Source: Martelella alba
GTDB lineage: Bacteria; Pseudomonadota; Alphaproteobacteria; Rhizobiales; Rhizobiaceae
Direction of reading: 5' to 3'
Length of the DNA stretch: 64,000 nucleotides
Assembly: GCF_006516955.1 (NCBI RefSeq)
Contig: NZ_VHLG01000003.1
Coordinates: 248,001 to 312,000, forward strand
The translations under genes were made by a program, and so were the position numbers. Of this stretch, positions 54,582 to 59,829 are shown one piece after another. Each line of letters opens with the position of its first letter. Positions within the stretch are counted from its first letter, which is position 1. The notes beneath the pieces were generated by a model that was not told where the DNA came from, made no database searches, and saw nothing but the letters and a program-made list of their open reading frames with translations.

Positions 54582-54602
54582 CCCCGGTGCCTGGCACCGG
54601 GG
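54582..54602 (+). repeat. Gene-proximal copy of the guaB terminator stem (no U-tract)
   Basis: Arms CCCCGGTGCC and GGCACCGGGG surround one base, beginning 30 bases after the guaB stop. The same 21 bases occur again at 54814-54834. This copy is followed by TCAGACTG instead of T residues. Confidence 0.85.
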
Positions 54603-54610
54603 TCAGACTG

Positions 54611-54805
54611 TTGACAAAGCCATTCATATTGGATGTTTGAGGTGGAGCACCCCCTCCCTCCGTCGTCATCCCCGTGCTTGTCACGGGGATCCATACTCTC
54701 AAGGATTTGAATAAGCAGTTTCTTTCGCCGCGCGGACGCGCGGCGGCTGGATGCCTGTGGACCAAGCACAGGCATGACGTCAGAAAAAGGGGCAAGTTTT
54801 GTCAG
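54611..54805 (+). mobile_element. MITE/RIME-like intergenic element, copy 1 (about 195 bp)
   Basis: The ends are inverted: TTGACAAAG on the left and TTTTGTCAG on the right. Inside are several conserved hairpins: CCCCGTG/CACGGGG, CCGCGCG/CGCGCGG and ATGCCTGTG/CACAGGCAT. Two more copies lie at 55625-55820 and 59579-59771. No protein is encoded. The internal palindromes resemble rhizobial intergenic mosaic elements (inference from memory). Confidence 0.75.
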
Positions 54806-54813
54806 CAATCTGA

Positions 54814-54839
54814 CCCCGGTGCCTGGCACCGGGGTTTTT
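54814..54839 (+). terminator. Gene-distal copy of the guaB terminator, with U-tract
   Basis: This is the same 21-base stem as at 54582-54602, here followed by TTTTT. Transcription from guaB would have to pass through the inserted element to reach it. Confidence 0.85.
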
Positions 54840-55017
54840 CTATAGCTGGGCGCTGTTCACACGGGCGTGATCGTCAACGATGATTTTGTGATCGATGCGT
54901 GAATGTCTATGAATAGTGAACAATCAGTTGATTAAATGTGGAATTGTCGTCGGCTCCTCATCGGACTATCTCTCCGTCAACAGAAACGAACAACAAACAT
55001 TCCCAAGGAGAATTCAA

Positions 55018-55245
55018 ATGTCCAAGTTCATCGCTGCCGCTGCCCTCGTTGCAAGCTTCGCCGCCGCTCCCGCCGTCTTCGCCGCTCAGCCTGTTGCCCA
55101 GAGCGCCGACCACCTGACCAAGGCGCCGGCCGGGTCGATGGTTCAGATCGAAAGCCGCGACAATGGCACCCAGATCGACAACATCTACCGCGTCAGCGCC
55201 GATGGTTCGCTGAAGCTCGTTGATCAGGTTCGTCACGAAGACTGA
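55018..55245 (+). CDS. Small secreted protein of unknown function, tandem copy A
   Basis: This protein of 75 residues has a signal peptide (FIAAAALVASFAAAPAVFA). The mature part of about 50 residues has no cysteines and ends in YRVSADGSLKLVDQVRHED. It is a near-duplicate of the next gene. The ribosome site, signal peptide and C-terminal third are nearly identical at DNA level, while 11 codons at 55147-55179 differ completely. The ATG follows AAGGAGAATTCAA. I do not recognise a characterised family. Confidence 0.85.
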   Translation: MSKFIAAAALVASFAAAPAVFAAQPVAQSADHLTKAPAGSMVQIESRDNGTQIDNIYRVSADGSLKLVDQVRHED

Positions 55246-55333
55246 TTGCGACTTTAAAGAAAAATAACGGAAACCCCCGCGGTCAACCGGCGCTTTTGAA
55301 AACAGCCGGAACCGCCCCCCAAGGAGAATTCAA

Positions 55334-55561
55334 ATGTCCAAGTTCATCGCTGCCGCTGCCCTCGTTGCAAGCTTCGCCGCCGCTCCCGCCGTCTTCGCCG
55401 CTCAGCCGGTTGCCCAGAGCGCCGACCACCTGACCAAGGCCCCTGCCGGTTCGATGGTTCAGGTGAGCGATATCCACCAGGGCGATCGGGTTGAAAACAT
55501 CTATCGCGTCAGTGCCGATGGTTCGCTGAAGCTCGTTGATCAGGTTCGTTACGAAGACTGA
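55334..55561 (+). CDS. Small secreted protein of unknown function, tandem copy B
   Basis: This is a 75-residue paralogue of copy A, 88 bp downstream on the same strand. The first 85 or so bases after the ribosome site are identical to copy A. The variable block lies at 55463-55495 and encodes VSDIHQGDRVE where copy A has IESRDNGTQID. The C-terminus differs by one residue (Tyr for His near the end). A separate ribosome site is kept, and a stem-loop follows. Confidence 0.85.
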   Translation: MSKFIAAAALVASFAAAPAVFAAQPVAQSADHLTKAPAGSMVQVSDIHQGDRVENIYRVSADGSLKLVDQVRYED

Positions 55562-55587
55562 TTGCCGGTCTGATACAGCACACAATA

Positions 55588-55625
55588 GCAGAAGGCCTCG
55601 GATCGCATGATCCGGGGCCTTCTGC
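55588..55625 (+). repeat. Gene-proximal terminator-like stem after copy B (no U-tract)
   Basis: GCAGAAGGCC...GGCCTTCTGC encloses CGGATC/GATCCG, forming a long stem with a GCAT loop. It is followed directly by the TGACAAG end of the inserted element instead of T residues. A related stem recurs at 55830-55852. Confidence 0.8.
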
Positions 55626-55820
55626 TGACAAGCTCATCCAGATTGCCTGTTGGGGGCGGAATAGCCGCCCCCTCCGTCGTCATCCCCGTGCCTGTCACGG
55701 GGATCCAGTTTCATATGGCACTGAACAGAGGCGGAGTCCTTCGCCGCGCGGACGCGCGTCGGCTGGATGCCTGTGACAGGCACAGGCATGACGTTGGAGA
55801 AGGGGGCAAGCTTTGTGTCA
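55625..55820 (+). mobile_element. MITE/RIME-like intergenic element, copy 2 (about 196 bp)
   Basis: The left end is CTGACAAG and the right end CTTTGTGTCA. The central segment shares the CCCCGTG/CACGGGG, CCGCGCGGACGCGCG and ATGCCTGTG/CACAGGCAT hairpins with the other copies, while the middle between them is diverged. It has the same orientation as copies 1 and 3. Confidence 0.72.
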
Positions 55821-55828
55821 ACGGTCTT

Positions 55829-55861
55829 CCCCCGGATCATGCCGATCCGGGGCCTCTTTCG
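55829..55861 (+). terminator. Gene-distal terminator stem after element copy 2
   Basis: A CCCCGGATC/GATCCGGGG stem with a 5-nt loop is followed by CCTCTTTCG. Its arms match the inner part of the stem at 55588-55625, with a different loop. Confidence 0.7.
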
Positions 55862-55873
55862 TTTCTTTCTCTG

Positions 55874-56698
55874 TCAGCTCTGGCTTTGCGACTGGCTCTG
55901 ATTTTGGCTGATGACCTGCAGGTTGACCGACATCTGGCCGGGGCCGCCGCCAAGCGTCATGCCGACAACTGGTGCGGCATCCGTGTAGTCGAGACCACAG
56001 GCGATCCGAACATAGCGCTCATCCGGGCAGACTTTGTTGGCGGCATCGAAGCCAACCCAGCCAAGCCCTTCCAGATAGATCTCTGCCCAGGCATGGCTTG
56101 CCGACTGGTCAGTGGTGCCTTCCATGAAAAGGTAGCCGGAAACATAGCGTGCGGGCAGTTTCATTTGCCGCGCGCAGGCCAGAACGATATGGGCATAGTC
56201 CTGACAGACGCCGGCTTCGTGCTCCAGTGCCTCTTCCGCTGAGGTCGTGGTGCTGGTTATGCCCGGCTTGAAGGTCATCTTTTCGTAAAGCCTTCCCATC
56301 AGATCATGCAGGCGTGCCAGATCACTGTCGCCTTCCAGCGATGACACGATTGCACGGGTGTGCTTGCCGATCTCTGTCAGCGGCGTTTCCCTGAGGAAAA
56401 GCCACAATGGGCAATCGGAAGAATGCGGGCCGAAAATACCGTCTGTGTCACGCGTTTCCACCGTGCCGGTGGCGATCAGCCGCATGGCGGACTGTTCGCC
56501 ATCAACAGAGACGAGCCGGACCAGATTCTCATACTGGTCACTATAAGTGACCTCGTTCTTGGCCCCTTCAATGGCAACGCTCCAGTCAACGACCGTCTGA
56601 CCCGCTGAATTGACGGGTGTCAGTCGCAGCCGCTGCAGCGAAAAGACGACCGGCTCCTCATAGCGGTATTCGGTCACATGGTTGATCTTCAAAAACAT
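55874..56698 (-). CDS. Transglutaminase-like cysteine peptidase-fold protein
   Basis: This protein of 274 residues has an N-terminal bacterial transglutaminase-like beta domain (INHVTEYRYEEPVVFSLQRL) and a transglutaminase core. The catalytic Cys is in EHEAGVCQDYAHIVLACAR, the His in QSASHAWAEIYLEGLGWVGF and the Asp in the following strand. It is the third gene of the ATP-grasp/alpha-E/transglutaminase operon. The operon is widely conserved and predicted to make or modify peptides, but no product is known. The ATG at 56698 leaves a 37-bp gap; a Met 20 codons upstream would overlap the alpha-E gene. Confidence 0.92.
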   Translation of the reverse strand: MFLKINHVTEYRYEEPVVFSLQRLRLTPVNSAGQTVVDWSVAIEGAKNEVTYSDQYENLVRLVSVDGEQSAMRLIATGTVETRDTDGIFGPHSSDCPLWLFLRETPLTEIGKHTRAIVSSLEGDSDLARLHDLMGRLYEKMTFKPGITSTTTSAEEALEHEAGVCQDYAHIVLACARQMKLPARYVSGYLFMEGTTDQSASHAWAEIYLEGLGWVGFDAANKVCPDERYVRIACGLDYTDAAPVVGMTLGGGPGQMSVNLQVISQNQSQSQSQS

Positions 56699-56735
56699 CG
56701 TCGTTTCCCGATCCCTGTTTGTGCCTGCTACCGCT

Positions 56736-57674
56736 TCATTGATAGAAACGGTAGCCATCGCTGATTTGCTGGCTCAGCTGGTTGTTGTGACAGACGAAAT
56801 CCTCAAGAAACTCGTGCAGCCCATTGTCCATGATCGTCTTGATCTTCTGGCTGCGGAGCTTGTTGCGAATGCCATTCGCCGTATCATGGGCAGCAAGCCT
56901 GCTGCCGTAATCGGCCGCCAGATAATCGAGATTGGCGACGATCTTTTCATAGCAATAGGCGAGCGAACGCGGCAATTGCACATCAAGAATCAGAAAATCG
57001 GCGATCTGGCTCGGAATATATTCGCCATTATAGACCCAGCCATAGGCCCTGTGGGCCGATACCGACCGCAGGATTGATTCCCATTGCAGATTGTCGAGCG
57101 AGGAACCGACGTGATGGACTGAGGGCAGCAGGACGTAATATTTCACGTCGAGAATCCGGCTGGTATTGTCCGCGCGCTCGATGAAAGTGCCGATATGCGC
57201 GAAATTATAGATCTCGTTGCGCAGCATCGATCCGTGAAACGTGCCGCGGATGAGTGCCGTCCGGTGCTTGATCGAATCGATCACCTGCGGCAGGTCGGCT
57301 GCCTTGACCTTGCCTGACAGGATCCGTGTGACCTCGATCCAGCATTCATTGGTCGCTTCCCAGATCTCGCGGGTCAGCGCCGTGCGCACCAGGCGCGCAT
57401 TGTTGCGGCCGGCATCGATGCATGACAGCACGCTTGAAGGGTTGCGGCGGTCGCGCAGCAGAAAGTCGACTGCATTATCAGCGGTCAGCTCATCATAGGC
57501 GTCCTTGAAGGTGTCGGCGACGCCGGCACTTTGCAAAACGCCGTCCCAGTCATCCGCACCTTTGGAGCGGGTCAGAGAGACACGCTGACCGGCGTCGATC
57601 AGTCGGGCGATATTTTCGGCCCGCTCGATGTAGCGGAACATCCAGAAGAGGCCGTTTGCGGTTTTTCCCAGCAT
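56736..57674 (-). CDS. Alpha-E domain-containing protein
   Basis: This helical protein of 312 residues has the family start LGKTANGLFWMFRYIERAEN and the motif FIERADNTSRILDVKYY. The biochemical function is unknown; it is almost always encoded with the permuted ATP-grasp protein upstream. Three bases separate the two genes. Confidence 0.93.
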   Translation of the reverse strand: MLGKTANGLFWMFRYIERAENIARLIDAGQRVSLTRSKGADDWDGVLQSAGVADTFKDAYDELTADNAVDFLLRDRRNPSSVLSCIDAGRNNARLVRTALTREIWEATNECWIEVTRILSGKVKAADLPQVIDSIKHRTALIRGTFHGSMLRNEIYNFAHIGTFIERADNTSRILDVKYYVLLPSVHHVGSSLDNLQWESILRSVSAHRAYGWVYNGEYIPSQIADFLILDVQLPRSLAYCYEKIVANLDYLAADYGSRLAAHDTANGIRNKLRSQKIKTIMDNGLHEFLEDFVCHNNQLSQQISDGYRFYQ

Positions 57675-57677
57675 CGA

Positions 57678-59090
57678 TCAGTCCTCCAGAACCCAGGTAT
57701 CCTTGGTGCCGCCGCCCTGCGAAGAGTTGACGACGAGCGACCCCTCCTTGAGTGCGACACGGGTCAGTCCGCCCGGCATGATGCGGACGCGATCCGAAAC
57801 CAGGACATAGGGGCGCAAATCGACATGGCGTGGCGCGATGCCTTTTTTCACCATGATCGGCACAGTCGACAGCGAAAGCGTCGGCTGGGCGATATAATTG
57901 GCGGGTTTTGCCTTCAGCTTGTCGGCAAAGGCCTCGCGTTCCTTCTTGCTGGCGGTCGGGCCGACCAGCATGCCGTAGCCGCCGGAACCATGCACTTCCT
58001 TGACCACCAGATCAGCCAGATTGTCGAGCACATAGGCAAGGCTCTCCGGCTCCGAACAGCGCCAGGTCGGAACATTTTCCAGCATCGGCTTGGCGCCGGT
58101 GTAGAATTCGACGATTTCCGGCATATAGGAATAGATCGCCTTGTCATCGGCAATGCCCGTTCCCGGCGCATTGGCGATGGTGATATGGCCGGCGCGATAG
58201 ACATCCATGATACCGGGAATGCCAAGCGCCGAATCCGGGCGGAAGGTCAGAGGATCGAGAAAATCGTCGTCGACACGGCGATAAAGCACATCGATTGCCT
58301 CATAACCGCGGGTGGTGCGCATCTTCACCTTGCCGTCGATGACGCGCAGATCCGAGCCCTCGACCAGTTCCGCACCCATCATGTCGGCGAGAAAGGAATG
58401 TTCGTAATAGGCTGAATTGAAGATGCCGGGTGTCAGCACGCCAATGCGCGGCCGGGTGCCGGTGAAGCCGGGTGGTGCAAGTGTCGCCAGGCTCTGGCGC
58501 AGCGCCTGGGGATAGTCTTCGACGCGACGAACACGGTTCTTGTAAAACAGTTCCGGGAACATCTGCATCATGGTTTCGCGATTTTCCAGCATGTAGGAAA
58601 CGCCGGAAGGTGTGCGGACATTGTCTTCCAGCACATAGAACTGGTCTTCGCCGGTGCGCACAATATCCGTGCCGCAAATATGGGTATAGACCCCGCCGGG
58701 CGGTTCAAAGCCAATCATCTGCGGCAGAAAGGCGTCGTTTTCCTCGATCAGCCGGCGCGGCACGCGGCCCGCCTTGATGATCTCCTGCTTGTGATAGATA
58801 TCCTGCAGAAAAGCATTGAGCGCAATCACGCGCTGCTCGATGCCGGCTGCAAGTTTGCGCCATTCCTTGCCGGAAATGATGCGCGGAATGATATCGAAGG
58901 GGATCAGTTTCTCAGACGAATCCGCATGTCCGTAGACGGCGAAGGTGATGCCTGTTTTTCTGAAAATATTCTCTGCTTCGCGGGATTTCGCCAGCAGATG
59001 TTGAGGATTTTGTTGGGAATACCAGTCGTAATAATCTTTATATGGCTCACGCGGTGCTGAGCCGTCGCCCATCATTTCATCGAAGGTCAA
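57678..59090 (-). CDS. Circularly permuted ATP-grasp protein (type 2)
   Basis: This protein of 470 residues is predicted to form an amide or peptide bond using ATP. Family motifs are DFMGDGS-type N-terminus (DEMMGDGSAPREPYKDYYDW), YVLEDNVRTPSGVSYMLENR, and VVKEVHGSGGYGMLVGPTAS. It is the first gene of the three-gene operon with alpha-E and transglutaminase partners. A bulged inverted repeat lies 20-46 bp upstream of the ATG and may be an operator. Confidence 0.93.
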   Translation of the reverse strand: MTFDEMMGDGSAPREPYKDYYDWYSQQNPQHLLAKSREAENIFRKTGITFAVYGHADSSEKLIPFDIIPRIISGKEWRKLAAGIEQRVIALNAFLQDIYHKQEIIKAGRVPRRLIEENDAFLPQMIGFEPPGGVYTHICGTDIVRTGEDQFYVLEDNVRTPSGVSYMLENRETMMQMFPELFYKNRVRRVEDYPQALRQSLATLAPPGFTGTRPRIGVLTPGIFNSAYYEHSFLADMMGAELVEGSDLRVIDGKVKMRTTRGYEAIDVLYRRVDDDFLDPLTFRPDSALGIPGIMDVYRAGHITIANAPGTGIADDKAIYSYMPEIVEFYTGAKPMLENVPTWRCSEPESLAYVLDNLADLVVKEVHGSGGYGMLVGPTASKKEREAFADKLKAKPANYIAQPTLSLSTVPIMVKKGIAPRHVDLRPYVLVSDRVRIMPGGLTRVALKEGSLVVNSSQGGGTKDTWVLED

Positions 59091-59109
59091 AGCGTTCTTC
59101 CCCCGTTTG

Positions 59110-59136
59110 TTATGCTTGTATAGAAATACAACATAA
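59110..59136. promoter_or_regulatory. Inverted repeat upstream of the ATP-grasp operon
   Basis: TTATGCTTGTAT and ATACAACATAA form an 11-bp inverted repeat with one bulged base around AGAA. It lies 20-46 bp before the ATP-grasp ATG. It could be an operator or a leader hairpin. Confidence 0.45.
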
Positions 59137-59540
59137 GCACCAATGCAAGCACCATGCCTGATTGAAAATGGCTTTCTGTTCAGCTTTCCCCGGTGTCAAA
59201 GGTTCTGAAAAAAAGGCATTTTTCCAAGTTCGCTGAACATTTGGGCAAAGTTTGCCGCAGGTCTATCCCTGCTATTGGGCGCCAAAAAGCGGAAGCCGGG
59301 ACTTTTCCGGATGCATTTTCAATGCTTCGCGGGGAAAATATGGAACCCGCCGGTTGAAACCGCATGCCGGATGCAAGCGCCGGAAAGAGCATCCAAAATC
59401 TGCCGGACGGTAGCGTCTGTTGCGCCACAAGCCCGAGAGACTCTGCGTCAACTATGCGAGCGACAGGGAAGATGTTGACATGACCGGCATGCCGCTTTCG
59501 GTGAACAGCCGCGACAGCCCGTGGAAGTACAGCTTCACAG
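59137..59540. other. Intergenic region without a recognised gene
   Basis: This stretch of about 400 bp lies between the ATP-grasp operon and the terminator stem at 59545. Short open frames on both strands (67-102 codons) lack ribosome sites and familiar motifs. The segment just before 59540 (MPLSVNSRDSPWKYSFTEKA in one frame) might be a gene remnant, but nothing supports this. Confidence 0.4.
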
Positions 59541-59571
59541 AAAAGGCCCGCCGGTCATGTGCCGGCGGGCC
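59541..59571 (-). terminator. Gene-distal copy of the helicase terminator, with U-tract (minus strand)
   Basis: The arms GGCCCGCCGG and CCGGCGGGCC form a 10-bp stem with a 7-nt loop. Read on the minus strand, the stem is followed by TTTTCTG. It is separated from the DEAD-box helicase gene by the inserted element copy 3 and a second stem. Confidence 0.8.
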
Positions 59572-59578
59572 CAGCTTG

Positions 59579-59771
59579 CTGACAAAGTCATTCAGCTTGT
59601 CTGTTTGGGGTGAAATCGCCCCTCCCTCCGTCGTCATCCCCGTGCTTGTCACGGGGATCCATACTCTTAAGGATTTGAATAAGCAGAGTCTTTCGCCGCG
59701 CGGACGCGCGTCGGCTGGATGCCTGTGACAAGCACAGGCATGACGTTAAAGAAGGGGCTAGGGTTTGTCAG
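59579..59771 (+). mobile_element. MITE/RIME-like intergenic element, copy 3 (about 193 bp)
   Basis: The inverted ends CTGACAAAG and TTTGTCAG are clearest in this copy. The interior is very close to copy 1 over the first hairpin and the AAGGATTTGAATAAGCAG segment. It lies in the same orientation as the other two copies, although its host gene is on the opposite strand. Confidence 0.77.
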
Positions 59772-59779
59772 AAATCTGA

Positions 59780-59804
59780 GCCCGCCGGTTATGTGCCGGC
59801 GGGC
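59780..59804 (-). repeat. Gene-proximal copy of the helicase terminator stem (no U-tract)
   Basis: The stem GCCCGCCGG/CCGGCGGGC with a TTATGTG loop differs from the stem at 59545-59571 by one loop base. Read on the minus strand it is followed by TCAGATTT rather than a run of T. Confidence 0.8.
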
Positions 59805-59829
59805 CTTCTTCTTCATTGGTCAATCAGCC

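Follow-up and report, generated by a model that had tools for sequence, protein, structure and literature searches.

The DNA analysed here (the window) is a stretch of 64,000 nucleotides from Martelella alba (NCBI RefSeq assembly GCF_006516955.1, contig NZ_VHLG01000003.1, positions 248,001 to 312,000 of the forward strand), and our subject is a short repeat that occurs in it three times, each time at the end of a gene and between two copies of a terminator-type stem-loop. Family searches identify two of the host gene products as IMP dehydrogenase (guaB) and a DEAD-box RNA helicase; the helicase gene lies on the opposite strand from guaB and from the third host, a small-protein gene whose product matched no Pfam or NCBIfam family. 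A first-pass annotation of this DNA had described three copies of a 195-bp repeat. The three copies stand, but the ends lie further out and give a length of 207–211 bp (Table 1), with copy 1 bounded by CAGACTGTTGACAAA and TTTGTCAGCAATCTG. The flanking stems are largely as that annotation had them: the guaB stems are identical (22/22 bases), those at the helicase gene nearly so (25/26), and the gene-proximal stem lacks a U-tract and the distal stem has one, because the duplication leaves each outer flank with its own copy. At the small-protein gene the arms do match, but the loop does not merely differ as had been thought; the pair aligns better inverted than directly (score 40 versus 20), and the loop looks flipped. 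The observation is confirmed and is general beyond the window. We consider it highly probable that the repeat is a miniature inverted-repeat transposable element (MITE) mobilised in trans by a DDE transposase of the IS1182 family, which would target hairpin-forming DNA, mainly intrinsic terminators.

We searched the whole 5.0-Mb genome (55 contigs) with one copy of the element and three motifs. The merged matches formed 111 clusters, which approximates the copy number, and the flanks of all 111 were read. The majority sequence at both ends of the element is CAGACTGCTGACAAA. For scoring we used the 80 unique copies with both ends well bounded; outside this set stood 30 clusters with poor or truncated ends, copy 2 of the window among them, and one duplicate row. 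A flank-to-flank direct-repeat score of at least 26 was taken as a duplication, with mismatched flank pairs as the control. By this measure most of the scored copies (62/80) are flanked by duplicated stems, compared with 14 of 6,320 mismatched pairs. The duplicated repeats are whole hairpins whose sequence varies from site to site, as expected from the earlier proposal that the stem-loop is itself the target duplication, and 20 of the duplications are perfect, with lengths of 18–27 bp. Stems of at least 8 pairs stand at the very edge of the element in 50/80 left and 51/80 right flanks, against 12/798 control windows further out. Outer A- or T-tracts are present on both sides of 20 of the 62 duplicated copies, on one side of 33 and on neither side of 9. 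Six of the 30 unscored clusters also reach a score of at least 26, and in 13 a stem of 6 or more pairs stands at each edge. The further proposal that insertion is aimed at terminator-type hairpins is thus supported.

Table 1. Copies of the element and the flanking stem-loops in the window
Feature	Position	Strand	Remarks
guaB terminator stem-loop, left gene-proximal copy, without U-tract	54582..54603	+	22/22 identical to 54814-54835; single at the empty G005 site
MITE copy 1, terminal inverted repeats	54604..54812	+	
Right distal stem-loop copy and T-tract, likely guaB terminator	54813..54839	+	terminator-like site 54812-54836
Small-protein gene terminator stem-loop, left copy	55593..55617	+	
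MITE copy 2, degenerate ends, bounds approximate	55618..55828	+	outside the 80 scored copies
Right stem-loop copy, loop flipped relative to left copy, then CCTCTTTC	55829..55858	+	inverted score 40, direct 20
Helicase-gene terminator stem-loop, left copy, distal for the minus-strand gene, T-tract on minus strand	59546..59571	-	
MITE copy 3, served as search query	59572..59778	+	
Internal palindrome pair in copy 3, RIME1-like core	59632..59745	+	
Right stem-loop copy, proximal to helicase gene; scores as plus-strand terminator too	59779..59805	-	25/26 identical to 59546-59571

Sites without the element were sought in other members of the genus. The guaB query matched in all 12 congeners, and in the closest of these (G005, 93% identical at the guaB region) the site aligns without the element and holds one stem-loop followed by a T-tract. 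A further 16 sites with strong duplications, taken from 32 candidates at no more than two per contig, were searched in the same genome. Seven of the 16 are cleanly empty, with a one-piece match across the join and one stem-loop each; three are split by 201–208 bp, so that they are occupied in both species; and for six BLAST gave a partial match or none; realignment shows one stem-loop at two of these six. In agreement with the first-pass annotation, the resolvable empty orthologous sites carry one stem and not two. G005 has copies of its own, with a duplication in 19/23 bounded copies (27 loci examined). Full copies were found only in the window genome and G005 among the 13 genus genomes searched, and three other congeners gave one core match of 33–38 bases each. 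A pattern with the exact termini of the MITE matched only the window genome among 151 family genomes, a sample outside which G005 lies.

Elements with the same ends and a transposase gene are found in related genomes. A search for PF13751 in 61 genomes (our own and 60 relatives) led to three insertion sequences (ISs) with the termini of the MITE (L119, L120, L125), each lying between near-identical hairpins, and named genomes were scanned with part of one transposase, 80 of 249 relatives being kept; going by their titles, most of these come from rhizobia and related bacteria. In 48 loci the two ends could be read with 40 or more flanking bases each, and 47 of these loci are unique; L204 and L205, from two Mesorhizobium genomes, represent one IS insertion whose flanks are identical in the two and were counted once. 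Duplication of a whole stem-loop flanks 37/47 IS loci compared with 15/2,162 controls, and in 36 it is perfect, at 17–28 bp. Stems of at least 6 pairs stand at both edges in 45/47 loci, and the stem adjoins the IS at 71/72 left and 54/55 right measurable ends, against 95/721 control windows. The end seen in most IS loci is again CAGACTGCTGACAAA, a 15-bp terminal consensus common to the MITE and the IS1182-family elements. The transposase genes of these parent elements are bounded by inverted repeats, and all four single-frame transposases scanned scored 470–486 bits with the IS1182 profile NF033551 (cut-off 270) and exceeded the cut-offs of PF13751 and PF05598. Furthermore, perfect hairpin duplications of 18–25 bp flank 7/7 plasmid relatives (57–80% identity), selected by hand from 30 listed among 326 plasmid records and including elements from Salinivibrio, Vibrio, a Klebsiella plasmid and the Bacillota element ISBspe1.

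Analysis at the level of sequence establishes the ends of the element, the shared terminal consensus, the stem-loops at the edges, the stem-loop-sized duplication and the one-stem empty sites. Beyond what the first-pass annotation had proposed, the repeat of the window is by its termini a MITE of the IS1182 family, and in other genera the IS1182 elements themselves behave alike. The MITE has both the termini of the parent IS and the parent type of target duplication (62/80 MITE copies, 37/47 IS loci).

IS1182 elements, their MITEs and the targeting of hairpins are of a known kind; what follows on published systems refers to the accessible parts of the sources cited. IS1272 / TnSha1, an IS1182-family element of staphylococci, has stem-loops as its targets irrespective of their sequence, and several of these are terminators (PMC5678879, PMC4923244). 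However, Wan et al. (2017) and Furi et al. (2016) report that IS1272 replaces or deletes the stem-loop and makes no target duplication (PMC5678879, PMC4923244), whereas here the whole stem-loop is doubled. Replacement of the IS1272 type does not describe our sites, which have the stem-loop on both sides of the element and one stem-loop where an empty site is resolved. The model of Wan and colleagues from 2017 does draw stem-loop duplication, as a hypothetical "pathway b" for IS1272 (PMC5678879). ISPse1 and MITEPye1 of Paracoccus are likewise an alphaproteobacterial IS1182 element and a MITE, of 159 bp, with IS1182-type ends, but they make 4-bp direct repeats, and no duplication of a whole hairpin is reported in the parts of these sources available (PMC3281130, PMC11578231); the perfect duplications found here, 17–28 bp for the IS and 18–27 bp for the MITE, are not of the 4-bp type. 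The 160–169-bp MITEs of Methanosarcina acetivorans are also attributed to an IS1182 partner, ISMac2, and their table entries report neither terminator hairpins nor long duplications (PMC3852290). ISBspe1, an IS1182-like element of Alkalihalophilus named by annotation, was examined in a single copy, which has similar termini and lies between duplicates of a 20-bp stem-loop. Palindromic intergenic sites are also the targets of IS elements inserting into REP (repetitive extragenic palindromic) sequences, but there the target is a repeated sequence (PMC1525189), whereas the hairpins here are unrelated. The literature searched, which did not extend to ISfinder, TnPedia and most subscription papers, yielded no account of a widespread clade for which duplication of the entire hairpin is the rule.

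A second IS1182 clade provides a related case. Of 39 loci examined, 20 have recognisable termini, and the flanking repeats are exactly 4 bp in 14/20, 5 bp in 1/20 and absent in 5/20; the 4-bp length is that of ISPse1 and MITEPye1 (PMC3281130, PMC11578231). In four copies of two genomes (L123, L131, L325, L332) the 4-bp repeat is the centre of a hairpin with 9–10 of 12 arm positions paired, a count made without a shuffled control. We regard this as a lead that the second clade duplicates the hairpin loop.

The target duplications of DDE transposons are normally short and have a constant length dictated by the synaptic complex. Here, in contrast, the length of the duplication tracks the hairpin, with bounds at the hairpin feet or a few bases from them. 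We hypothesize that the target DNA extrudes into a hairpin or cruciform and that the two 3' ends of the element are linked to the 5' feet of the hairpin arms, one to each; gap repair would then copy the hairpin onto both sides. The four-way junction would hold the two attack points together, 17–28 bp apart in linear DNA and neighbours in the junction, so that a transposase of fixed geometry would yield duplications of 17–28 bp that match the hairpin. A broader proposal, to which we give about an even chance, is that one IS1182 clade extending from Bacillota to the alphaproteobacteria uses the extruded hairpin as a ruler, so that a complete hairpin of any length would be duplicated, that different attack points on one structure would give three outcomes in the family (hairpin removed in IS1272, whole hairpin duplicated in this clade, and loop only in the 4-bp clade, as four copies suggest), and that terminators are safe targets, rebuilt by the duplication.

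The transposase might instead read the context of a terminator (A-tract, G+C-rich stem, T-tract) as B-form DNA, or a paused transcription complex, with edge signals of the form A|AGG...CCT|T setting the length. The edges of the IS insertions are what such signals would give: the first base is A in 31 of the 36 perfect IS duplications and the last is T in 25, with both true of 21, and A- or T-tracts lie beside 36/37 duplicated IS sites and 53/62 MITE sites. However, an initial A is present in only 10 of the 20 perfect MITE duplications and a final T likewise in 10, both tracts are absent at 9/62 MITE sites and 1/37 IS sites, and a fixed synaptic stagger would not give a length that varies with the hairpin over 17–28 bp. 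We regard this account as possible, if rather unlikely.

The core of the MITE raises another alternative. It appears similar to RIME1 of rhizobia, an intergenic element with two large palindromes. RIMEs are mentioned in PMC2573895. Similar core palindromes without IS1182-type termini occur in the three plasmid copies read from 77 matching records (L286-L288; Agrobacterium, Rhizobium and Sinorhizobium), and the MITE seems to combine a RIME1-like core with ends of the IS1182 type. The repeat could then be an ordinary structured intergenic element of the RIME type that spread by recombination, with stem duplication a by-product or the result of gene conversion, but the transposon termini, the target duplications and the IS1182 elements with the same signature make this very improbable. 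That double terminators pre-existed and the element inserted between the two stems is scarcely credible: most of the 10/47 IS loci without a duplication do have two different stem-loops at their ends, but the eight clean empty sites (guaB and 7/16) hold one stem-loop, and at 36/47 IS loci the copies are identical including their loops, with stems that differ between sites.

For host genes, mobilisation of the MITE into terminators by an IS1182-family transposase would have little consequence. With a full stem kept in each outer flank, transcripts would meet a complete terminator beyond the element, which would become part of the 3' untranslated region, and insertion would be nearly neutral because every transcript would still meet a complete terminator.

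Several observations weigh against the reading of the repeat as a MITE mobilised in trans into hairpins. No matching duplication at the threshold was found for 18/80 MITE copies and 10/47 IS copies. At nine of these 10 IS loci, stems of at least 6 pairs stand at both ends and are mostly different hairpins, and the tenth (L181) is weak at one end. The terminator-like hairpins at the two ends of the IS differ from each other at L161, L163, L166, L206, L210 and L213, among others. Differing hairpins at the ends of an IS fit recombination between IS copies, and we read the MITE and IS copies without a matching duplication as probable products of decay or of recombination between copies. At 9/91 MITE sites the inverted alignment of the two stems is better than the direct one, an outcome that simple duplication would not produce. 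No transposase of the parent type was detected in the window genome or in G005, so that mobilisation in trans rests on the shared ends and the shared target signature; the MITE may be orphaned in these two genomes, or the draft may be incomplete. An AlphaFold2 model built from 24 aligned transposases had a predicted local distance difference test score (pLDDT) of 46, unfit for fold comparison, and a comparison of the transposase profile with solved structures gave no real match (best E 0.45). Finally, the stem that bears the U-tract is not better preserved: among 44 one-sided copies it is longer in 15, equal in 12 and shorter in 17, and by folding energy it is more stable in 14, equal in 1 and less stable in 29 (sign test p 0.03, Wilcoxon p 0.10). 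We had considered that selection keeps the stem copy with the U-tract and rejected this, since the faster decay of the tractless copy that it predicts was not seen in the 44 copies.

Some individual sites have additional features. An apparently flipped loop is seen in the window (55593-55617 compared with 55829-55858), at G000:C52:137368 and at L262, and one empty site (site 76, G005) also looks flipped between the species; this suggests that loop inversion occurs in terminator hairpins. At L030 (G000:C54:203800-204242) a tandem insertion has the order stem-element-stem-element-stem, in which the outer stems are alike and the middle one is different. Upstream of copy 2, two tandem, near-identical small proteins of 75 amino acids are encoded at 55002-55249 and 55318-55565; their start looks by eye like a signal peptide, and neither had a match in Pfam or NCBIfam. 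The end of a related gene at C48:145264 (L015) likewise holds the element in a similar terminator. An Rfam scan of the window gave no match at gathering thresholds.

In about a hundred natural insertions (62 MITE copies, 37 IS loci and 7 plasmid relatives), the length of the duplication follows the secondary structure of the target, which brings the hairpin duplication that Wan et al. drew as a hypothesis within reach of a direct test. Should loop duplication prove general in the second clade, targets of one kind would meet three different fates within the family. The findings suggest how a mobile element can spread through terminators while costing its host little, and genomes that carry such insertions may offer a natural record of where hairpins extrude in living cells.

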